From assembly GCF_023206215.1 (NCBI RefSeq), contig NZ_CP065800.1:1984001-2048000 (forward strand): a stretch of 64,000 nt of DNA, in the 5' to 3' direction. The DNA comes from Butyrivibrio fibrisolvens. Lineage in GTDB: Bacteria > Bacillota > Clostridia > Lachnospirales > Lachnospiraceae. Under the pieces are notes generated by a model. It was not told where the DNA came from, did no database searches, and saw only the letters and a list, made by a program, of their open reading frames with translations. A program made the translations under genes and the position numbers. Shown here in pieces: positions 3,911 through 57,257 of the stretch; the stretch's first letter is position 1, and each line of letters begins with the position of its first letter.

Positions 3911-4029
3911 AATATGACGTAAGGGTCAAAAGTCATTTCGATTCGAGCTTGCTCAAAATCGAATATGAATTTATGACCCGCCAAACATGAGCAAAGTAGC
4001 ACGTAGTGCGGATTTGCGAATGTTTGAGG
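3911..4029 (+). repeat. 119-bp composite palindromic repeat, copy 1 (modules A+B)
   Basis: Nearly identical (one or two differences) to the reverse complement of 7412-7530. Module A (3923-3979) is an imperfect hairpin running from GGGTCAAAAGTCAT to ATGAATTTATGACCC, with the centre CGAGC-TT-GCTC. Module B (about 3982-4027) is a second hairpin, CAAACAT-GA-GCAAA / TTTGC-GA-ATGTTTG, with an inner GCAC-GTA-GTGC. Partial copies of module A lie at 10538-10601, 28083-28112 and 33530-33575. Confidence 0.85.
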
Positions 4030-4062
4030 GTGCAAGACATCCGGGGATGTCTGCTTTGCGCC
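4029..4062. repeat. Hairpin module E
   Basis: GACATCC-GG-GGATGTC is a perfect inner stem, enclosed by GGTGCAA / TTGCGCC with one wobble. It is present only in copy 1 of the composite repeat, between module B and a fragment of module C (GTGAGAGTTTCGAAGAA) that runs up to the ribosome site of the next gene. Confidence 0.6.
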
Positions 4063-4108
4063 GACCGGAGTGGAACGTAGATGTGAGAGTTTCGAAGAAG
4101 AGGTTAGG

Positions 4109-4537
4109 ATGAAAAAAAGAGATGATATTAAAACTCATACGCATATAGATGAAAATGGTCATGAGTATACCCATACGCATGAAGACCATGATCATGTGCA
4201 TGCTCATGACAATAATACACATGAAGGCCATGATCATGCTCATACTCATACTCATCACTCTCATTCACATACCCATGACCCCAAGGAGATGAAAAAGATC
4301 ATAAATCGTATCTCCAAATCAATCGGTCATATGGAATCCATCAAGCGTATGCTTGAAAATGGTGAAGACTGTGCTGATGTTCTAGTTCAGATAGCAGCAG
4401 TTAAATCAGAGATCAATAATGCAGGCAAGGCACTACTCAAAGAGCACCTTGATCACTGCATAGTAGAAGCGGTAGCTCAAAATGATACCGAGTCTGTAGA
4501 CAAGATGAACAAAGCAATTGATTATTTTATGAAGTAA
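4109..4537 (+). CDS. CsoR/RcnR-family metal-responsive repressor with His-rich N-terminus
   Basis: 142 residues. Residues 50-142 are a CsoR/RcnR (DUF156) four-helix DNA-binding domain. The Cu(I)-type ligands are visible: Cys in NGEDCADV and His/Cys in HLDHC, giving the Cys-His-Cys set of CsoR. Residues 8-55 are an unusual extension in which about half the residues are histidine (THTHEDHDHVHAHD, HTHTHHSHSHTHD), able to bind several Zn, Ni or Cu ions. The start at 4109 follows AGGTTAGG. No efflux pump or copper chaperone gene lies nearby, so the regulated gene is not obvious; autoregulation through the hairpin-rich leader is possible. It converges with the AraC gene, with only 12 bases between stops. 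Confidence 0.8.
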   Translation: MKKRDDIKTHTHIDENGHEYTHTHEDHDHVHAHDNNTHEGHDHAHTHTHHSHSHTHDPKEMKKIINRISKSIGHMESIKRMLENGEDCADVLVQIAAVKSEINNAGKALLKEHLDHCIVEAVAQNDTESVDKMNKAIDYFMK

Positions 4538-4549
4538 GATTCACACCTT

Positions 4550-5449
4550 TTAGGTGGTGGTGTACTTTTTTCTGTACTTTAGAGGTGTGATTCCCTCGTA
4601 TTTGTTGAACATATTTATCAGACCTCTTGCATCTGAGAATCCGCAGTCCATGGCTATTTCGAGAACGGACTTGGAAGAGCCTGTAAGAGCATCCTTGGCA
4701 GAATTGATACGCATTCTTGTCAGGAATTCTTTATAGGTTATTCCCATATTGGATCTGAAGAATCTGGAAAAATAGCTGGCAGAGTATCCAAAGTGCTGTG
4801 CGGCAGACATCTCATTTATATCCAGCCTGTAGTTATCTTCTGTATAAGAGATTATCTTTCTTAAAATATCAGCATTTTTTCTGTCTTTTTTAGGCATTTC
4901 CATGTCTTTAAGAGTCAGGTCATCTCTGCAGATATAATATAAAAGCTCATGTACCAGGCCGATGAGGCGCATATTTTCGTATTTATTCAAAGCTTTTCCA
5001 TCAGCATATCTTGCAAGATCTTTCATTATCTGAGCGGGTCTTTCTTCGCTTGTTTTAAATACCGGCAGGAAGTACAGGTCTTCAAAGTTTGGAATGAAGC
5101 TTCGAAGAAATGAATCACTTATCTGAAGCACGGTAGTCAGTGTCTCAGGCATGTCATCATATGGAGTTGTCCTGTTGGATATGACCTTGTGAATACTTCT
5201 TGAGTTAACGATGATGAACTGGTCAGCTTCCAGATGGTGAGGTACACCATCTGTATAGTATATTCCGTCATTTGAATAAGAGTAGACTATTTCAAGCTCG
5301 TTGTGCCAATGATCGAGAACATCACTGGCAGTAGAAAGGTTACCGTTTCTGTAAAGATCCCTTTTATGCACATTTAATATATTGAAAGGCATCTCTGTAT
5401 GGTAGTGTACTACTTCATATGAGATATCTTGAGTGGTTGATTCCGGCAT
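4550..5449 (-). CDS. AraC-family transcriptional regulator
   Basis: 299 residues. The N-terminal half is a cupin-type sugar-sensing domain (HWHNELEIVYSYSNDG, then HHLEADQFIIVNSRSIHKV). Residues about 195-295 are the double helix-turn-helix AraC domain (FGYSASYFSRFFRSNMGITYKEF, split by the linker from ALEIAMDCGFSD-type sequence near 265). ATAAGGGG lies 5 bases before the ATG. It is divergent from the GPH symporter across a 392-base gap, the usual arrangement for a local activator of a sugar uptake gene; that target is inference. Confidence 0.85.
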   Translation of the reverse strand: MPESTTQDISYEVVHYHTEMPFNILNVHKRDLYRNGNLSTASDVLDHWHNELEIVYSYSNDGIYYTDGVPHHLEADQFIIVNSRSIHKVISNRTTPYDDMPETLTTVLQISDSFLRSFIPNFEDLYFLPVFKTSEERPAQIMKDLARYADGKALNKYENMRLIGLVHELLYYICRDDLTLKDMEMPKKDRKNADILRKIISYTEDNYRLDINEMSAAQHFGYSASYFSRFFRSNMGITYKEFLTRMRINSAKDALTGSSKSVLEIAMDCGFSDARGLINMFNKYEGITPLKYRKKYTTT

Positions 5450-5841
5450 ATTTTCCCCTTATACGTCAGATTATATTTGGCAAAAAAGTTTTTATTGCAT
5501 CAGGTATAAAAAATTAAGATATGATATCAGGCGCTTTAAAAGACAGCTTGATATAGACATACTGTTATATGTATCAGAGATAATTATATAAGACGAAGAT
5601 TAAAAGTCAAGAAAACGTAATTTTTGTGGCAAGAAATGTAAAGAGCAAATTATCAATTTTTAATATATTAGTTTCCAGAGAAGGAATTAAGGGTCCGGTT
5701 TTATAATAGCTATTAAAACAGCGATGAAAAGTGATCCGGTGGCTTACATATCTGTATTACCGGCATAAGCCAATAGAGCATAGGAGGTACGCAAGGATAG
5801 TAACAGCCGGATCGAGGACCCTATATAAAGGGAGGAAACAT
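5450..5841. promoter_or_regulatory. Divergent control region of araC-type gene and symporter
   Basis: 392 bases between divergent starts. A TATAAT-like -10 is at 5702-5707 for the rightward gene, but I see no good -35 at 17 bases and no clear AraC half-site repeat. No other structure stands out. Confidence 0.35.
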
Positions 5842-7212
5842 ATGGAAGCTATATACGAACAAAGTCAGGACAAGAAAGTACGTCTATCTACCACAGAGAA
5901 ATTATCTTATGGAATTGGTGACTGCGGCGCCAATGTAATAGTTGCTCTGGCATCATCTTTTCTCACAGGATATTATACAGATACTGTAGGAGTTGCTGCA
6001 GCTGCTATAGGAACCATGATGTTGCTATGCAGAGTATTTGATGGTATTACTGATCTTATTATGGGTGCAATTGTTGACAAGACTAAGTCAAAATATGGTA
6101 AAGCAAGACCGTGGCTTTTGTGGACAGCACCACTTATGGGAATATCACTCTTTTTGATATTCAACGTACCGGCATCACTTGGTGCAACTGGTAAGCTTAT
6201 CTACATCTATCTTACATATATCTTCCAGAACTGCATCATCTATACAGCTAACAACCTGCCTTACAACGCACTTCTTAGCCGTATGACACTTGATGTACAG
6301 GACAGAGCTCAGACAGCTTCTATCAGATTCGTGATGACTCAGGTTACATCACTTATCACAAACGTAATCACAGCTAACCTTATAGCAAGCGTCGGCTGGA
6401 GATCAATATCAGCTATCTATGGTACTGTTGCATGTGTTATGTGCGTTCTGTGCTTCCTTGGAGTAAGAGAGCACGTAGATGCTGAGGATGATGGAACAGT
6501 CAAAGTAGAAAGAGTTCCGCTTTCAAAGGCTCTTCCGGCACTTTTTAAGAACAAATATTTCTTCATTCAGGCACTTATGTTCATGTTCCTGTACATCAAC
6601 GTAGTAACAACAGGTTCTATGACCTACTATTTCTGCAACAGCGTACTTGGAAACATCGCATTCCTTTCATGGACATCAGTAGCCGGAACTGTACCTGCTA
6701 TGATCGTAAATCTTATGATGCCGGGACTTGTTGCAAAGTTTGGAAAAAGAAAACTCATGATCACAGGCGCAACAATCATGGCTATAGGCTCATGCATCAT
6801 CGGAGCAGCAGGTTCTAACCTTCCACTTGTAGTACTTGGACTTATAGTTAAGGGATTTGGTACAGGACCTATCATGTCAGGAATCTTCGCAACAACAGCT
6901 GACGTAGTTGACTATGGTGAATGGAAGACAGGAGTTCGTTCTGAAGGACTTGTTAACAGCTGCACAAGCTTTGGTATGAAAGTTGGTATCGGCCTTGGAT
7001 CAGCTATCTGCACATGGATCATCGCAATCGGCGGATATGTAGGAACTGCAGAAGTCCAGACAGAAGCTGCGCTTGCATCAATCCGTTTTGGATATGGATA
7101 CTTTGGAGCAATCCTGTCACTGGTAGTACTTGCACTGTGCATCATCATGAACATTGACAAGCACATCGACCAGATTCAGAGAGACCTTGAAGCTAAGAGA
7201 TCTATGGCTTAA
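5842..7212 (+). CDS. GPH-family sugar:cation symporter (MFS)
   Basis: 456 residues with about 12 membrane segments, matching the glycoside-pentoside-hexuronide:cation symporter family (MelB/XynB/UidB type). Diagnostic stretches are EKLSYGIGDCGANV at the start, DGITDLIMGAIVDKTKSKYGKARPWLL split over TM2 and loop 2-3, NLPYNALLSRMT, and DVVDYGEWKTGVRSEGL in the central loop. It probably imports an oligosaccharide, beta-xyloside or glucuronide coupled to Na+ or H+. The start at 5842 follows AAAGGGAGGAAA. An in-frame TTG-type extension to 5731 lacks a ribosome site. The adjacent AraC gene is the likely regulator. Confidence 0.88.
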   Translation: MEAIYEQSQDKKVRLSTTEKLSYGIGDCGANVIVALASSFLTGYYTDTVGVAAAAIGTMMLLCRVFDGITDLIMGAIVDKTKSKYGKARPWLLWTAPLMGISLFLIFNVPASLGATGKLIYIYLTYIFQNCIIYTANNLPYNALLSRMTLDVQDRAQTASIRFVMTQVTSLITNVITANLIASVGWRSISAIYGTVACVMCVLCFLGVREHVDAEDDGTVKVERVPLSKALPALFKNKYFFIQALMFMFLYINVVTTGSMTYYFCNSVLGNIAFLSWTSVAGTVPAMIVNLMMPGLVAKFGKRKLMITGATIMAIGSCIIGAAGSNLPLVVLGLIVKGFGTGPIMSGIFATTADVVDYGEWKTGVRSEGLVNSCTSFGMKVGIGLGSAICTWIIAIGGYVGTAEVQTEAALASIRFGYGYFGAILSLVVLALCIIMNIDKHIDQIQRDLEAKRSMA

Positions 7213-7343
7213 ATGGTATAAAGGCATTTCAACCAAAATAGGGGATAGGAATTAAATAATAGTGCGGATGAACTGATTTTAGGTTCATTCGCATTATTAA
7301 ATAACAAGTGTAGTAATAAGACTATAATTGATATAATGAGGTA

Positions 7344-7368
7344 GGTGTCAAAAGTTCCTTTTGACACC
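7344..7368. repeat. Hairpin module D
   Basis: A perfect 11-bp stem, GGTGTCAAAAG-TTC-CTTTTGACACC, about 130 bases after the symporter stop; it could also terminate that transcript. It is flanked by GGTAG / CTACC, which extends the symmetry. Confidence 0.65.
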
Positions 7369-7380
7369 ATATGACTACCG

Positions 7381-7412
7381 GATTGTTCCGTTTCTTCGAA
7401 ACTCTCACAATC
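7381..7412. repeat. Hairpin module C
   Basis: On the minus strand: ATTGT-GAGA-GTTTC-GAA-GAAAC-GGA-ACAAT, two nested stems. The same module occurs at 33488-33517, and its first half occurs at 4083-4100. Confidence 0.65.
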
Positions 7413-7530
7413 CTCAAACATTCGCAAATCCGCACTACGTGCTACTTTGCTCATGTTTGGCGGGTCATAAATTCATATTCGATTTCGAGCAAGCTCGAAT
7501 CGAAATGACTTTTGACCCTTACGTCATATA
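7412..7530 (-). repeat. 119-bp composite palindromic repeat, copy 2
   Basis: Reverse-orientation copy of 3911-4029, containing modules B and A. Together with modules C and D it fills most of the 397-base gap between the symporter and the esterase. Confidence 0.85.
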
Positions 7531-7609
7531 ATAAAATATAGTTAAAAAATATTATTAAAAAGAATATTTTTGGGTAAAAGATATATATATACGAAGTGAG
7601 GTAGTAAAT

Positions 7610-8643: not shown

Positions 8644-8678
8644 ATTATATTAATATAATAAAAACTTTGAGGTGGAAC

Positions 8679-10526
8679 ATGGATTATATCACATCAGCAA
8701 AAGCTGCAGAAAAACTTGGAATATCCCGTAGAATGGTAAATGCAATGTGCCAGAAGGGAACTATAAGCGGTTCCAAAAAAGTTGGCAATAGATGGATGAT
8801 ACCACTTGATTATATCGAAAAAATGGGAAATGGGAAATTTTCAAACAAACCACTTCCCATTGGCGTCTCTGATTTTGCCAAGGCTATTACAGATTATTAC
8901 TATATAGACAAGACTTTGCTGATAAAAGAATTAATCGATAACAGGCCGCTTGTTTCTCTTTTTCTACGTCCCAGACGTTTTGGTAAGACATTGAATATGG
9001 ATATGCTTCGTACCTTTTTTGAAAAAGCTGAAAAAGATACAAGTGTATATTTTCAAAAAACCAAAATATGGTCTTCTGGACGGGAGTATAGAGAATATCA
9101 AGGCAAATTTCCTGTTGTGTATTTTAATTTTAAAGATATGAAGTTCGATAAATGGTCTGAAATGCTTATAAATATAAAAGCAATTATTCAGTCAGAGTAT
9201 GAAAGACTTATATCTCAAATAGAGCAGAGTAATCTAACGGAGCTTGATAGAGTCTATGTTGATAAAGTCATTAATGGTACATTAGAAGAAGCTCTGTGGT
9301 CGGGAACATTGGGGAAGCTTACGCAGATTCTGGACAGGTACTGCGGCAAGGCCCCTATAATAATGATAGATGAATATGATACACCTATTCAGCAAGGACA
9401 TATGTATGGATTTTATAATGAAGTCATAGGCTTTATGAGAAACTTTCTATCAGGTGGGCTCAAGGACAATAAGCATATGACAATGGCTTTTCTGACCGGT
9501 ATATTAAGAGTCGCTAAGGAAAGCATATTCAGCGGACTAAACAATCTGATGGTCAATTCTGTTATAGATAACAATTATAGTTCGTACTTTGGATTTACAG
9601 AACCAGAAGTAAAAAAACTCCTAAAGGACTACGGCGTATCTGAGCAATTTGCAAAGGTCAAGGAGTGGTATAATGGATATCATTTTGGTGATACGCAAAT
9701 ATATAATCCATGGTCGGTACTTAATTATGTATCTCAAAACTGTATCACCAAAACCTATTGGCAATCTACCGGAAGTAATGATGTCATAGGCGAGATTATC
9801 TCAAACGGATCCAATGAACTTATAGAGGAGATAAGAGAACTTCTTGGAGGAGGCAAAAAAAGTGTATATCTTGATATATCTGTAGTATATCCGGAGATAG
9901 GGAAAAGCTTTTCTTCTGTTTATAGTTTTTTGCTTATGGGAGGGTATCTTACTCTTGATTCAGCGGAATCACTGTATGATGGTAATACTGTAGGAGAAGT
10001 CAGGATTCCCAATATAGAAGTGATGCATGTTTTTGAACAGGAGATACTTTCAAGAACTGGGAATATAGTCTCAGGTGAAGATGCTATTGGTTTCCAGCAC
10101 GCGCTTTTAAGTAAGAATAATGAAGAAATGCAGAAACGATTAACTGAATTTCTAAAGGAGACGATCAGCTATTTTGATGCGTCTGCAGAAGGTTTCTACC
10201 ATGGTATGCTTCTGGGGCTAAGTGCCTCATTGAATAGGTTTTATGAGATTAAGTCCAATAGAGAAGCCGGTGATGGGCGCTATGACATAGCGCTTATTCC
10301 GAAAGCCAAGGATAATACAGGATACATAATTGAAGTAAAATCTCTATCAAAAGTCAAAAAAAATATATCCGAAAATGACTTGTTACAGCTACTTGACTAC
10401 GAAGCTCAAATGGCTTTAGATCAAATAGATGATATGCATTATGCAGATGCTATGAAGAAAGCAAAGATATATAAAATTGGAGTGGCATTTTACAAAAAGA
10501 ATTGTCGCGTGATCGGAAGAAAATGA
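8679..10526 (+). CDS. AAA-ATPase-like / PD-(D/E)XK (DUF1703) protein with N-terminal HTH
   Basis: 615 residues in three parts. Residues 1-48 are an excisionase/MerR-type winged helix (AKAAEKLGISRRMVNAM, VGNRWMIP). From about residue 58 follows an AAA-ATPase_like domain with the family hallmark ITDYYYIDKT, Walker A RPRRFGKT (97-104) and Walker B APIIMIDEYDTPI. The C-terminus is a DUF1703 PD-(D/E)XK nuclease-like domain (GDGRYDIALI, YIIEVKS). Such proteins are often multicopy in gut anaerobes and have no settled function; a nuclease or mobile-element-linked role is inference. The start at 8679 is preferred over the upstream TTG because GAGGTGG is 4-9 bases before it. Confidence 0.8.
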   Translation: MDYITSAKAAEKLGISRRMVNAMCQKGTISGSKKVGNRWMIPLDYIEKMGNGKFSNKPLPIGVSDFAKAITDYYYIDKTLLIKELIDNRPLVSLFLRPRRFGKTLNMDMLRTFFEKAEKDTSVYFQKTKIWSSGREYREYQGKFPVVYFNFKDMKFDKWSEMLINIKAIIQSEYERLISQIEQSNLTELDRVYVDKVINGTLEEALWSGTLGKLTQILDRYCGKAPIIMIDEYDTPIQQGHMYGFYNEVIGFMRNFLSGGLKDNKHMTMAFLTGILRVAKESIFSGLNNLMVNSVIDNNYSSYFGFTEPEVKKLLKDYGVSEQFAKVKEWYNGYHFGDTQIYNPWSVLNYVSQNCITKTYWQSTGSNDVIGEIISNGSNELIEEIRELLGGGKKSVYLDISVVYPEIGKSFSSVYSFLLMGGYLTLDSAESLYDGNTVGEVRIPNIEVMHVFEQEILSRTGNIVSGEDAIGFQHALLSKNNEEMQKRLTEFLKETISYFDASAEGFYHGMLLGLSASLNRFYEIKSNREAGDGRYDIALIPKAKDNTGYIIEVKSLSKVKKNISENDLLQLLDYEAQMALDQIDDMHYADAMKKAKIYKIGVAFYKKNCRVIGRK

Positions 10527-10537
10527 GAACATTAAGT

Positions 10538-10601
10538 ATAATATGATGTAAGGAGCAAAAGTCATTTTGATTAGAGCTTGCTCGAAATCGAATATGAATT
10601 T
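10538..10601 (+). repeat. Degenerate module A copy
   Basis: ATAATATGATGTAAGGAGCA continues into AAAGTCATTTTGATTAGAGC and then TTGCTCGAAATCGAATATG, a diverged copy of module A with the 3' arm lost. It ends just before the ribosome site of the next gene. Confidence 0.6.
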
Positions 10602-17275: not shown

Positions 17276-17530
17276 ACTATAGTTCCCGATCAACTTTTCT
17301 AACCACGTTTCAACGACACCTCTGCAGGGCAGGAGATCTTAAATAGCTTGTAGCAATCATTCATGATCTTTGTTGCCTCTGTTGTCAGTTCGGCAAAATC
17401 TTACAAAGAATGATTACACAATTATAATTGAAATTCGATGGGATTTTGTGTCAAATACGGTATAATCCATTGAAAAGGGGCTGTCGCACTAAGTAATTAG
17501 TGCTCAGCTCCCTGTTTATGCCCAAAACAC

Positions 17531-17560
17531 AAAAACCAGGCTTCGAAAAGCCTGGTTTTT
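17531..17560. terminator. Insulating hairpin inside IS end
   Basis: A perfect 13-bp stem, AAAAACCAGGCTT-CGAA-AAGCCTGGTTTTT, 10 bases before the transposase ATG. It would block transcription entering from flanking genes, a common way for insertion sequences to limit their own activity. Confidence 0.8.
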
Positions 17561-17570
17561 GCTGTAAAAT

Positions 17571-19205
17571 ATGTTTATGCGACTAAACCAAATCTTACAA
17601 GGAGATTATACAGTATCTTCCTTGTATCATCAAATCAAACTTCCGCTAGACATAGAAATATCTATTCCATCTGATGATCCGGTACGCCTGGTTAGTGCAT
17701 TTGTGGAGGAGATGAATCTTTCTGATCTTTATGAGACTTATGACAGAATCAGAAAGAGTCAGGCCTCACCGCGTCAGATGCTTAAGATTGTTATCTATGC
17801 AGCAATGAACAGAATCTATTCCAGTCGTGATATTGAATCATCCTGCAAAAGAGATATCAATTTCATGTATCTTCTTGAAGGTGCACCCGCACCCGATCAT
17901 TCTACATTAGCAAGATTTATTTCCCTACATCTCTCACAATGTTCAAAGTCTGTAATGTCGCAGGTTGGAACTATACTTCTGGATCTTGGAGAGATATCAG
18001 GTGAGAATATATTTATCGATGGAACAAAGATTGAATCTGTTGCCAACAAATATACTTTTGTATGGAAAAAAGCCGTGACCAAGAACATGGCTAAACTTGC
18101 AGAGAAAATCTGTATGTTCTGTGCGGAATGCGAAGAACTCTATGATTTTAAGGTTGTATATAAAGACCAGATATCACTTCGCACTTTGAAACGATTAAGA
18201 AAGAAGCTTTACAAGATCAAAAAAGATGAGGCTATCGAGTTTGTACATGGCATTGGTAAAAGGAAAACAATGCTTCAACGCTCAATCGAAAAACTTGAAG
18301 AATATACAGAAAAGCTTAAAGAATACACAAACAAGCTTTATAAATGTGGCAGACGAAATAGCTATTCTAAAACGGATAACGATGCCACTTTCATGAGAAT
18401 GAAAGAAGACGCTATGCTTAATGGTCAGCTTAAACCTGCATACAACCTGCAGCATGGTGTTGATGCAGAATATGTAACCTGGCTCGGCATTTACCCGAAT
18501 CCAACAGATACTCTTACTCTGATACCTTTCCTAAAAGATATGGAAGAACATCTTCCCTTCAAATATAAAAACATAGTTGCTGATGCCGGTTATGAAAGTG
18601 AAGAGAATTATGTTTTCATTGAAAACAACGATCAGACCGGATATATAAAACCACAGAATTATGAACTGTCAAAAACAAGAAAGTTCAAAAAAGATATCAG
18701 TAAACGAGAAAACATGGACTATGATTCTGAAACTGACAGTTATACTTGCAAGAATGGAAAAAAGCTCTTAGCTGTATCCAAAAGAAAACAAAAGACAGCG
18801 ACCAGTTACCAACGTGAAGTAACAATATATGAGTGTGAAAGTTGCCATGAATGCCCATTCAAGAAAGACTGCATAAAAGGCAATAACTGTAAAACTCCAT
18901 TTGAAGATAGGAAAAAGGTTCTTTCTGTATCAAGAAAAATGGAAGAAAAACGTGCAGAATGTCTTGAACGAATAACTAGTGATTATGGAACACAGCTACG
19001 AATGAACCGTAGCATACAAGCAGAAGGTTCGTTTGCAAACGTGAAAGAAGATATGAATTTCAGACGATACCTTTATAAAGGAAGTGAGAATGTTCTGGCA
19101 CAGAGTACACTTTTGGCAATAGCTTTTGACATCAACAAACTCCACCATAAGATTATGTCTGAGCGAACCGGAACACATCTATTTGAACTGAAAAAAGTGT
19201 CATAA
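17571..19205 (+). CDS. IS1182-family transposase
   Basis: 544 residues. The N-terminal DUF772 helical domain (residues about 25-130; LVSAFVEEMNLSDLYETYD, DINFMYLLEGAPAPDHSTLARF) is followed by a DDE nuclease domain with Asp in IFIDGTKIES, Asp in NIVADAGYES and Glu in QAEGSFANVKED. A Cys-rich zinc-finger-like insert (YECESCHECPFKKDC) precedes the last catalytic residue. All three acidic residues and the length are intact, so it could be active. No ribosome site precedes either ATG (17571 or 17577), suggesting weak translation. Confidence 0.9.
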   Translation: MFMRLNQILQGDYTVSSLYHQIKLPLDIEISIPSDDPVRLVSAFVEEMNLSDLYETYDRIRKSQASPRQMLKIVIYAAMNRIYSSRDIESSCKRDINFMYLLEGAPAPDHSTLARFISLHLSQCSKSVMSQVGTILLDLGEISGENIFIDGTKIESVANKYTFVWKKAVTKNMAKLAEKICMFCAECEELYDFKVVYKDQISLRTLKRLRKKLYKIKKDEAIEFVHGIGKRKTMLQRSIEKLEEYTEKLKEYTNKLYKCGRRNSYSKTDNDATFMRMKEDAMLNGQLKPAYNLQHGVDAEYVTWLGIYPNPTDTLTLIPFLKDMEEHLPFKYKNIVADAGYESEENYVFIENNDQTGYIKPQNYELSKTRKFKKDISKRENMDYDSETDSYTCKNGKKLLAVSKRKQKTATSYQREVTIYECESCHECPFKKDCIKGNNCKTPFEDRKKVLSVSRKMEEKRAECLERITSDYGTQLRMNRSIQAEGSFANVKEDMNFRRYLYKGSENVLAQSTLLAIAFDINKLHHKIMSERTGTHLFELKKVS

Positions 19206-19422
19206 ATTTTGAATTTTAAAATAAAAAATTTGTATCAGCGTCGATAATTCAATCGGCTTATTAAAGTACGCCCAAAGACAGAGTATATAAAAAATATATA
19301 GTAAAAAAGCCGTTTTTAAGGCATGAAAAAGGGGCCTCGCCCAGATGATCAAATCATCTAGTGCGACAGCCCCTCTTTTACAATCTATTGAATCAGAGAT
19401 TCATGATTATGAATTTTTTAAT

Positions 19423-19466
19423 CTCATGTCGCGAGTAAAGTGAGCTACTAATGGTTCCAATTGATG
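19423..19466 (-). repeat. Intergenic repeat family, copy 2
   Basis: Reverse-orientation relative of 1657-1700 (shared GTCGCGAGTAAAG and CTAATGGTTC). Confidence 0.6.
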
Positions 19467-19486
19467 AAGCTTGCGACATCAATTGG
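19457..19486. repeat. 10-bp perfect hairpin after pectinesterase
   Basis: CCAATTGATG-N10-CATCAATTGG, followed on the plus strand by TTTT. It lies 18 bases beyond the stop of the leftward pectinesterase gene and may end or protect that transcript. It overlaps the repeat at 19423-19466. Confidence 0.5.
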
Positions 19487-19504
19487 TTTTGTATATGGAA
19501 GTCT

Positions 19505-25066: not shown

Positions 25067-25330
25067 GAAGAACCTGCATCACCAAAGGCTTTACAGAGGT
25101 GGGAAGTATATAGATCATTGCTACACTTTTTAATCGTTTTATAAAATTCATGAGCGTGATAGATGGAAATTTTTATTCTGACCGGGGTCCACATGTTTGA
25201 GCGAAGCGAGTTTGGACCCCAGAATAAAAATCTCCAGATATCATGCCATGAATTTATGAAACGATTAAAAGTGTGGCAAAGATCTATATACTGCCCACCC
25301 CTGTAAAGGCTTTGGTGATGCAGGTTCTTC
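25067..25330. repeat. 264-bp near-perfect palindrome between convergent genes
   Basis: Arms of about 120 bases (25067-25191 and 25213-25330) align as reverse complements with roughly 14 differences, including two or three small gaps. The outer ends are GAAGAACCTGCATCACCAAA and its complement, and the inner ends are GGGGTCCA / TGGACCCC. The loop, about 21 bases, contains GCGAAGC, a known very stable mini-hairpin. No open reading frame is evident. It fills the gap between the yfcE-like gene and the esterase, and would act at least as a bidirectional transcription barrier. Confidence 0.92.
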
Positions 25331-28082: not shown

Positions 28083-28112
28083 ATTTTGACCCTTATGTCA
28101 TATAATAATTTT
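28083..28112 (-). repeat. Fragment of module A
   Basis: AATTTTGACCCTTATGTCAT continuing into ATAATAATT matches the outer end of module A in reverse orientation. Confidence 0.5.
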
Positions 28113-33477: not shown

Positions 33478-33575
33478 TGACACCAGGATTGTGAGAGTTT
33501 CGAAGAAACGTTACAATTCGGGTGACACCAGGGTCAAAATTCATTTCGATTCGAGCTTGCTCGAAATCAATTATT
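33478..33575 (+). repeat. Modules C and A, flanked by a 10-bp direct repeat
   Basis: Module C (33488-33517, ATTGTGAGAG to ACAAT) is bracketed by TGACACCAGG at 33478-33487 and 33523-33532, like a target duplication. It is followed by a 3'-truncated module A (GGGTCAAAATTCATTTCGAT, then CGAGCTTGCTCG). The array ends 11 bases before the ribosome site of the S66 peptidase gene. Confidence 0.7.
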
Positions 33576-54680: not shown

Positions 54681-54723
54681 CCAAGGAAACAGTTTAAGTT
54701 AAAAACTAAAACTGATCCCTTGG
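54681..54723. terminator. Bidirectional hairpin between convergent genes
   Basis: CCAAGG-A-AACAGTTT pairs with AAACTGAT-CCCTTGG. An outer GAAAATGACC / GGTCATTTTC stem (54657-54666 with 54737-54746) extends it into the last codons of the lacI-type gene. Confidence 0.7.
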
Positions 54724-54739
54724 TAGTGTATGCCGGGGG

Positions 54740-55771
54740 TCATTTTCTGGTGCTGTTTCTGAACATGGGTGTGCATTCTACATGGGTCCAGCTGTAGGGA
54801 ATGCCGGGATTGCCGATCCTTCTAAGGAGAACTTCTGCTGAGATGCGGCCTATCTCTACACTGGGGATCTGGACGGTTGTAAGTGCAGGCTCTACGATAG
54901 AGGCCTGAGGTGTTCCGTCGAATCCTGTTACCATTATGTCGCCCGGAATAGATAATCCCATCTTTTTAAGAGCATTCATTAGATGGGCTGCAAGGAAGTC
55001 ATTTGCGCATACAAAGGCATCCGGCAGCTCTTTCATCTTATTAAGTCTTGATACGATCCAGTCTGTGTCTGCGTATGGAGATGCATCCGGATCTAAGATG
55101 CAGTAATCTTCGTTATAATCTATGCCGGCATCTATAAGGGCTGTCCGGTATCCTATCCATCTGTCATAGAAACTTCCGCAGTGTTCACAATCGCCGTAGA
55201 ATCCAATCTTTCCGGCACCTTTACTTATAATATAGTTTACTATTTCTATGATTCCTGCGCGACTTTCCATAGCTACGAAGTCGCATCCCATGAGCTTTTT
55301 GAAAGCGTGTGTGGGACTGTCGAGCATTATCGTAGGGATTCCGAGCTTACATATATAATCAAGATAGTCTTGATCAAACATCTCTATTCCCACTATTCCG
55401 GCGGTCTGATCCGGGATGAAATGGGGCGGCAGCTCTTTTCGTTTAAGCTCTTCTGAAGATATCTCGAACATCTTAAGGTTATAACCTGCTCTGCATATCC
55501 TGTCTGTAAAAGTAGTAACAAAATATGTACCAAAATGGTATTCAGCAGGGAGCTTATTGGAAAGAAGTGCGATTACCTTTCCATGAGAAGACTGCTGGAA
55601 GACTTTTTCGCTGGGGATGGCTTTGTATCCGAGCTCCTCAGCTTTTTTTAATATATGATTACGTGTATTTGAAGGGACATTACCTCGTCCGTTGAAAACT
55701 TTGGATACTGTATTTCTGGATAATCCGCAGGCGTCTGCGATATCCTGCATAGTCACTTTATTGTTGGCCAT
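54740..55771 (-). CDS. LacI-family repressor
   Basis: 343 residues. The LacI HTH is at 1-55 (VTMQDIADACGLSRNTVSKVFNGRGNV, split over helices 2 and 3, then hinge ILKKAEELGYK). The ligand domain (about 65-340) is of the Peripla_BP_3 type (GIVGIEMFDQDYLDYICKLG, DAFVCANDFLAAHLM, VTGFDGTPQASIVEPALTTV). It is divergent from an LplBCA importer and its spacer contains TGTAAAC operators, so it probably represses both directions until a sugar binds. ATG 55771 is chosen since GAGG is 8 bases upstream. Confidence 0.9.
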   Translation of the reverse strand: MANNKVTMQDIADACGLSRNTVSKVFNGRGNVPSNTRNHILKKAEELGYKAIPSEKVFQQSSHGKVIALLSNKLPAEYHFGTYFVTTFTDRICRAGYNLKMFEISSEELKRKELPPHFIPDQTAGIVGIEMFDQDYLDYICKLGIPTIMLDSPTHAFKKLMGCDFVAMESRAGIIEIVNYIISKGAGKIGFYGDCEHCGSFYDRWIGYRTALIDAGIDYNEDYCILDPDASPYADTDWIVSRLNKMKELPDAFVCANDFLAAHLMNALKKMGLSIPGDIMVTGFDGTPQASIVEPALTTVQIPSVEIGRISAEVLLRRIGNPGIPYSWTHVECTPMFRNSTRK

Positions 55772-57087: not shown

Positions 57088-57115
57088 AAATATATGTTTT
57101 CGCAACTTTGAATCA

Positions 57116-57237
57116 GAAATCCGCATTTACTGCGGATTTCGTAAGAAAGTGAATCGGTAGGTAAATAGGCTAGGCACCGAAGGTGTTCTCAATTGGCCTA
57201 TTTACATGACTTTTGGAACGAAGTGACAAAAAGTCAT
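57116..57237. repeat. Cluster of three hairpins between two permease genes
   Basis: Hairpin 1 (57116-57140): GAAATCCGCA-TTTAC-TGCGGATTTC. Hairpin 2 (57161-57205): GTAAATAGGC / GCCTATTTAC with inner CACC-GAA-GGTG. Hairpin 3 (57206-57237): ATGACTTTT / AAAAGTCAT. None has a U-tract. They fill the 170-base gap up to the next ribosome site. Confidence 0.8.
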
Positions 57238-57257
57238 ATTTTATAAATGAGGTTAAT

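Follow-up and report, generated by a model that had tools for sequence, protein, structure and literature searches.

A miniature inverted-repeat transposable element family that includes Clostridiales-1 RNA probably accounts for mosaic hairpin arrays in Butyrivibrio fibrisolvens

We focused on mosaic hairpin arrays in a 64,000-nucleotide stretch of Butyrivibrio fibrisolvens DNA (NCBI RefSeq assembly GCF_023206215.1, contig NZ_CP065800.1, positions 1,984,001 to 2,048,000), called the window below. The genome examined has two contigs and 4.45 Mb. Judged from sequence, the arrays are most probably copies and remnants of one family of miniature inverted-repeat transposable element (MITE). We infer that an IS1182-like transposase mobilised this family in trans, and that copies behind stop codons were maintained by selection. 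We give this account a probability of roughly 0.86. The family is best read as a MITE that has in part been domesticated as an RNA element behind stop codons.

Full-length copies, ends and target duplications

Ten full-length copies were found. Nine are 190 bp long and 95.8-100% identical; the tenth, at 241 bp, carries an extra block, E. Their boundaries are 18-bp terminal inverted repeats (TIRs), TGASGTARGKGTCAAAAG. An earlier note on this DNA had asked for target duplications, and these were perfect and 5 bp long at 10/10 full-length copies (TATAA, TATTA, TAATA, GATTA, TATCA or TACTA). As controls, shifted flanks matched in 2/540 cases and swapped flanks in 10/90, the latter because the targets have a common consensus. 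On plasmid pNP243 of B. fibrisolvens D1, all three full copies and the only 39-bp form had duplications of 5-6 bp. There was no match to the element in phage records. The element contains no transposase gene and, at 190 or 241 bp, lies under the ~500-bp bound for MITEs. It thus combines TIRs, target duplications, a small gene-free unit and an autonomous partner with matching ends (in relatives), features of MITEs in passages of PMC3049150 and PMC3852290, with empty orthologous sites.

In the window, the features are as follows, with limits corrected from those first described.

3915..4099, plus strand: truncated copy with A, B, E and part of C, without right TIR (RF01699, 68.5 bits; next ATG at 4109)
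7332..7336, strand not applicable: left target duplication TATAA (flank comparison)
7337..7526, minus strand: complete 190-bp MITE, hairpins A-B-C-D (TIR pair and duplication; RF01699, 109.8 bits; fold)
7337..7354, plus strand: right TIR TGAGGTAGGTGTCAAAAG (plus-strand reading), facing inward (end-pattern search)
7344..7368, minus strand: hairpin D (predicted fold), overlapping the right TIR and outside the Rfam match at 7372-7526
7380..7413, minus strand: hairpin C (predicted fold)
7415..7459, minus strand: hairpin B (predicted fold)
7462..7518, minus strand: hairpin A (predicted fold)
7509..7526, minus strand: left TIR TGACGTAAGGGTCAAAAG, facing inward (end-pattern search)
7527..7531, strand not applicable: right target duplication TATAA (flank comparison)
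10544..10601, plus strand: one-ended copy, hairpin A only, starting 17 nt past the end of open reading frame (ORF) 8667-10526
28083..28100, minus strand: TIR remnant TGACATAAGGGTCAAAAT, only the 18-bp end of A (end-pattern search)
33478..33571, plus strand: C then A between repeats TGACACCAGG (sequence comparison)

The sequences that the earlier note had described were present at all five sites. Apart from 7337-7526, these sites read as truncated, deleted or tandem remnants. At 33478-33571 we infer a tandem copy, the first unit of which would have lost A and B. The full copy at 7337-7526 has a fold energy of -75.8 kcal/mol, more stable than 200 shuffles (mean -43.4, sd 4.6; z -7.1). Allowing no more than 3 mismatches, a search of the whole genome for the 18-bp end pattern gave 63 + 66 = 129 matches, compared with 11 + 6 = 17 for a reversed-pattern control.

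Identity with Clostridiales-1 RNA and distribution

Searches with cmscan assigned two window sites to RF01699, Clostridiales-1 RNA, at 109.8 and 68.5 bits (gathering threshold 48). The RF01699 model spans A-B-C and a closing stem, and ends ahead of hairpin D and the right TIR. Matches occur in 37/37 genomes of the genus, with up to 32 per genome among the matches listed, and in 2/24 genomes from other families of the order. Within Lachnospiraceae, 135/250 genomes had a match, 114 of them above the cut-off. Control genomes gave 0/14 in each search (genus/order and Lachnospiraceae).

The best Lachnospiraceae copies from 30 genomes were then considered. In 23/30 a right end was recognised past the Rfam boundary, mostly of type TGATGTTGGGGTCAAAAG. 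Duplications of at least 5 bp flanked 12 of these 23 copies (control 3/460), a count that omits three duplications seen only by eye (L464, L478 and L481). Units in these 12 copies were 185-212 bp long. Among the open-access PMC papers listed by our searches, we found no title or opening of an abstract that names Clostridiales-1 a transposable element.

Insertion polymorphism

Empty sites, which the earlier note had also proposed to look for, were found at several places. The locus that measures 398 bp in the window is ~50 bp in genome G020 and ~61 bp in G011. In the close trio G016, G033 and G035, two G016 copies are missing from G033. One of these lies between trpG and trpD (TIGR00566 at 214.9 bits and TIGR01245 at 409.8 bits, each exceeding its cut-off), and G035 shares this insertion at the same position. 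In G016 the first TGA of the element serves as the stop codon of the trpG-like gene, which is 187 codons long. Where the element is absent, in the related species G033, the gene runs to 190 codons and ends in RNI. At the second G033 empty site the flanks keep TACTGAA/TACTAAT (by eye), which may be a decayed duplication. As judged by eye, insertion cost little or no sequence at both fine-scale sites, and no hairpin was taken out.

Candidate mobiliser

An IS1182-type insertion sequence (IS) probably moves the MITE. The element's right-end pattern was used to scan genome contigs, giving 103 stretches, some at contig ends. A Blautia metagenome-assembled genome contained a 1856-bp element with a 534-aa gene and matching ends (L259). 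Another, in RUG694, is 1869 bp long with duplication TTATA (L221). Pfam matches to the protein are three, including DUF772 and DDE_Tnp_1_6. The best NCBIfam match is IS1182 (NF033551), at 125.2 and 136 bits, below the cut-off of 270. By these scores the candidate is IS1182-like and belongs to a divergent group outside the family limit. Relatives of the transposase gene were found in 4/8 assemblies whose loci had the right-end pattern, and in 26/250 Lachnospiraceae genomes.

The ends of the IS and the MITE agree at 13-18/18 bases. IS copies of the genus, in G011 and G014, have the element's TIRs. The left TIR of our element matches the G014 IS at 17/18 bases and its right TIR matches the L221 IS at 17/18. 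The right TIR of Lachnospiraceae MITEs equals one end of the G014 IS (18/18). Among two-ended IS copies, 2/5 have 5-bp duplications (TTATA at L334, TGACA at L336). Matching the halves of contig-split copies gave duplications TGGGA, TATAA and TTCCA, for 3/4 five-prime ends. The earlier note's search for a transposase sharing the ends thus succeeded in relatives; it gave no match in this genome (E 1e-3).

Other candidates were set aside. A TIR pair at C1:2545558-2548137 (2580 bp, TAATA on both sides) encloses ordinary chromosomal ORFs rather than an IS. No matching ends were found for the IS copies of pNP243 (ISL3, IS66, IS30 and one unnamed transposase). One rve integrase match was found in this genome. 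The window has its own complete IS1182-family element at ~17477-19373. The gene of this element, 17571-19205, scores 352.8 bits with NF033551, exceeding the cut-off; the ends are GGGGCTGTCGCAC, and a 99.8% identical copy lies near G000:C1 4058084. The gene belongs to another group. Given these ends and a protein that is barely alignable with that of the candidate mobiliser, the window element is not the mobiliser.

Copies behind stop codons

We examined 65 copies, the best-scoring among the matches listed. The sample, which includes loci L116 and L208-L210, has 64 copies from the genus and one from another family, with orthologues counted separately. Copies were sorted by a regular expression for their first 22 nt into class I, with the GTGTCAAAA-type end kept (15), and class II, with that end not kept (50). 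A copy was scored as post-stop if the stop of an open frame 100 or more codons long fell within -15..+9 nt of its 5' end. In sense orientation this applied to 33/50 class II and 7/15 class I copies, compared with 25/1555 control positions. In antisense, at the other end, the counts were 2/50 and 0/15. The 30 Lachnospiraceae copies gave 7 sense and 0 antisense. None of the 10 full copies in this genome had such a stop within 15 nt, the nearest being 27 nt away.

The structure of these copies is maintained. Double changes occurred in 17/23 predicted pairs on an alignment of 44 of the 50 class II copies, on which the outer stem and lower A stem were not predicted. Eight comparisons of orthologous copies, all with flanks at least 90% identical on one side or both, gave 11 compensatory, 5 one-sided and 3 broken pairs; five of the eight had no double change. 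At orthologous sites in three species, one copy shows no difference across its 173 nt. At L443, the stems of the G035 copy differ widely from those of the G016 orthologue, while the flanks are 97-99% identical (compared with L436 and L450). This suggests copy replacement.

Origin of the mosaic arrays

The earlier note had proposed that the hairpin modules are, or once were, independent units, and that one fixed order would make the modules a single ordinary repeat. One order, A-B-(E)-C-D, with a single TIR pair and a single duplication, was found in 10/10 full-length copies. The separate modules look like remnants. Of 4275 junctions examined in the parent element, a single one has a direct repeat of at least 8 bp, GTCAAAAG. 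Deletion between these repeats matches 5/12 short forms tested; the junction assigned to L011 is void, its end having been misplaced. By eye, L011 lacks hairpin A and has TATAA on either side. Other separate blocks are one-ended, and one-ended copies are many in the genome. Block E is optional, with 4 complete matches. A nested insertion occurs at C2:117433-117665, where a full copy with duplication TATCA lies inside the end of a 39-bp-type copy. These recurring blocks, the nesting and the optional E bear out the likeness to MITEs that the earlier note had drawn. Variation among the arrays is what was lost or what landed beside; therefore the modules are best read as hairpins of one element.

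Other repeats were seen nearby. A second palindromic element (ACTAAAACTTCCCAC...) appears to be nested in, or to abut, decayed copies at G000:C1:3599492 (L094) and L017. A common block around AATGGTTC-AATTG-TG and CATCAATTTG lies near ~19450-19500, in the right flank of L003 and at L022, beside or within other repeats (by eye). Three places on pNP243 match a ~150-bp repeat at 57091-57248 of the window with 96-99% identity; this is another young repeat family. Two more families, at 25137-25255 and 54722-54794, are in common with pNP243.

Proposed mechanism

The MITE would have been cut and inserted in trans by an IS1182-like transposase, encoded in an element that likewise produces 5-bp duplications and has TIRs close to those of the MITE. 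The transposase would since have gone from this genome or diverged past detection. After insertion, deletions running between the short repeats found at hairpin bases could remove whole hairpins. Loss of one end, and copies landing beside or within one another, would add to the mosaic. Many older copies in other Butyrivibrio would have lost the right TIR and kept the closed three-hairpin fold, in sense orientation and right behind a stop codon. Selection would then maintain the transcribed structure as a REP-like 3'-end element. The nearest model for a post-stop role may be translation control, as described in part of PMC12306157 for repetitive extragenic palindromic (REP) sequences within 15 nt of stops.

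Weighing the explanations

Several observations weigh against this account. The orientation bias is not expected from DNA transposition alone. In the genus sample just 6/65 RF01699 copies had a duplication, with 0-1 in each of 19 controls. Seven of the 12 short forms have no clean repeat junction, and five A-only copies stop at nearly one point (query positions 61-65), for which deletion does not account. A perfect 5-bp duplication flanks only 4/14 TIR pairs spaced 38-49 bp apart, one of the 14 being hairpin D of a longer copy. As to the mobiliser, relatives of its gene occur in 6/61 genomes, of which a low 4/37 in the genus, and the search of this genome at E 1e-3 returned 0 matches. Three of the five two-ended IS copies have no duplication (L317, and also L338 and L361, both of whose genes have internal stops). 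Co-occurrence of the IS with RF01699 is weak (19/26 versus 116/224 genomes, one-sided p 0.03, assuming from their same handles that both 250-genome samples are identical).

Missing duplications could be explained by stem-loop replacement of the IS1272 type, in which a post-stop hairpin is replaced and the outer stem is the old target palindrome. The mobiliser is IS1182-like, and sections of PMC5678879 and PMC4923244 describe IS1272 and TnSha1 as replacing hairpins, mapped terminators among them, and leaving no duplications. Replacement would account for palindromic flanks too: the outer flanks of class II copies are complementary over at least 2 bp in 27/50 (shuffled mean 5.6, maximum 11), a count that takes orthologous copies separately. 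However, class I copies pair outward likewise (9/15), as is partly expected from AT-rich duplications, and at the two fine-scale empty sites, viewed by eye, insertion removed no hairpin and at most a little sequence. We consider this route unlikely. Mobility of each hairpin alone is very unlikely. It would fit the A, C-D and E blocks found apart and the one C-then-A order, but full copies share one order, the deletion junction fits, and none of the separate blocks, save short TIR-TIR forms, was seen to have both a second TIR and a duplication of its own.

A conserved RNA gene or cis-regulatory RNA of the Rfam type, immobile and repeated by ordinary duplication, would sit well with strong covariation, the identical 173-nt copy and the post-stop sense bias. 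It leaves the TIRs, the target duplications and the numbers per genus genome unexplained, and insertion polymorphism already contradicts it as a sole account; we regard it as highly improbable. Covariation by itself cannot tell an RNA gene from a folded transposon. Palindromes behind stop codons and mosaic arrays also recall REP sequences and bacterial interspersed mosaic elements (BIMEs) moved by a Y1 REP-associated tyrosine transposase (RAYT), which the earlier note had raised. The 18-bp TIRs, the 5-bp duplications and the DDE-type, IS1182-like nature of the genes found to share the TIRs speak against it; although RAYT genes were not searched for in this genome, we give this next to no credence.

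Our preferred account, of one MITE family moved by an IS1182-like transposase, recasts as a mobile element what had been listed as a candidate RNA gene family without a known function, and it names a likely mobiliser. Both mobility and RNA function become testable. If post-stop copies are functional, they form a large natural series of transposon insertions made into RNA elements, comparable to REP sequences with a longer conserved fold. A bolder version, tentative and with the odds somewhat against it, is that Clostridiales-1 is a transposable structured RNA. This would be a stop-codon-bearing three-hairpin module, delivered to gene ends by IS1182-like elements and kept by hosts, sense-only, as an intercistronic 3'-end regulator family-wide. 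Compensatory change, or conversion between copies, might alter its stems and leave the junction intact.

Comparison with known systems

Hairpins A-B-C belong to the family that Rfam types as 'Gene; sRNA' (RF01699; Weinberg 2010, PMC2864571, in part). That model omits D and the right TIR, whereas the full unit has target duplications. As passages on MITEs describe, the element is short, gene-free and folded, with TIRs, duplications and an autonomous partner with matching ends; it differs in its closed multi-hairpin domain, covarying stems and the strong post-stop sense bias in relatives. The BOX elements of streptococci, as described in part of PMC3049150, are likewise modular, with outer parts, optional inner blocks, reported TIRs and target duplications, and a predicted RNA fold. 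There the number of boxB units varies, whereas here blocks are mostly lost, not multiplied (a comparison by description, not sequence). IS1272 and TnSha1 belong to the IS1182 family that our mobiliser resembles; according to the same sections cited above they replace stem-loops without duplications, unlike the mobiliser group here (5-bp duplications in 2/5 two-ended and 3 contig-split copies). Finally, E. coli REP/BIME copies also lie no more than 15 nt past a stop codon, and PMC12306157, in part, cites a study where such REPs lower translation. Those are single short palindromes, whereas the element described here spans ~150-175 nt and has 18-bp TIRs, 5-bp duplications and a DDE partner.

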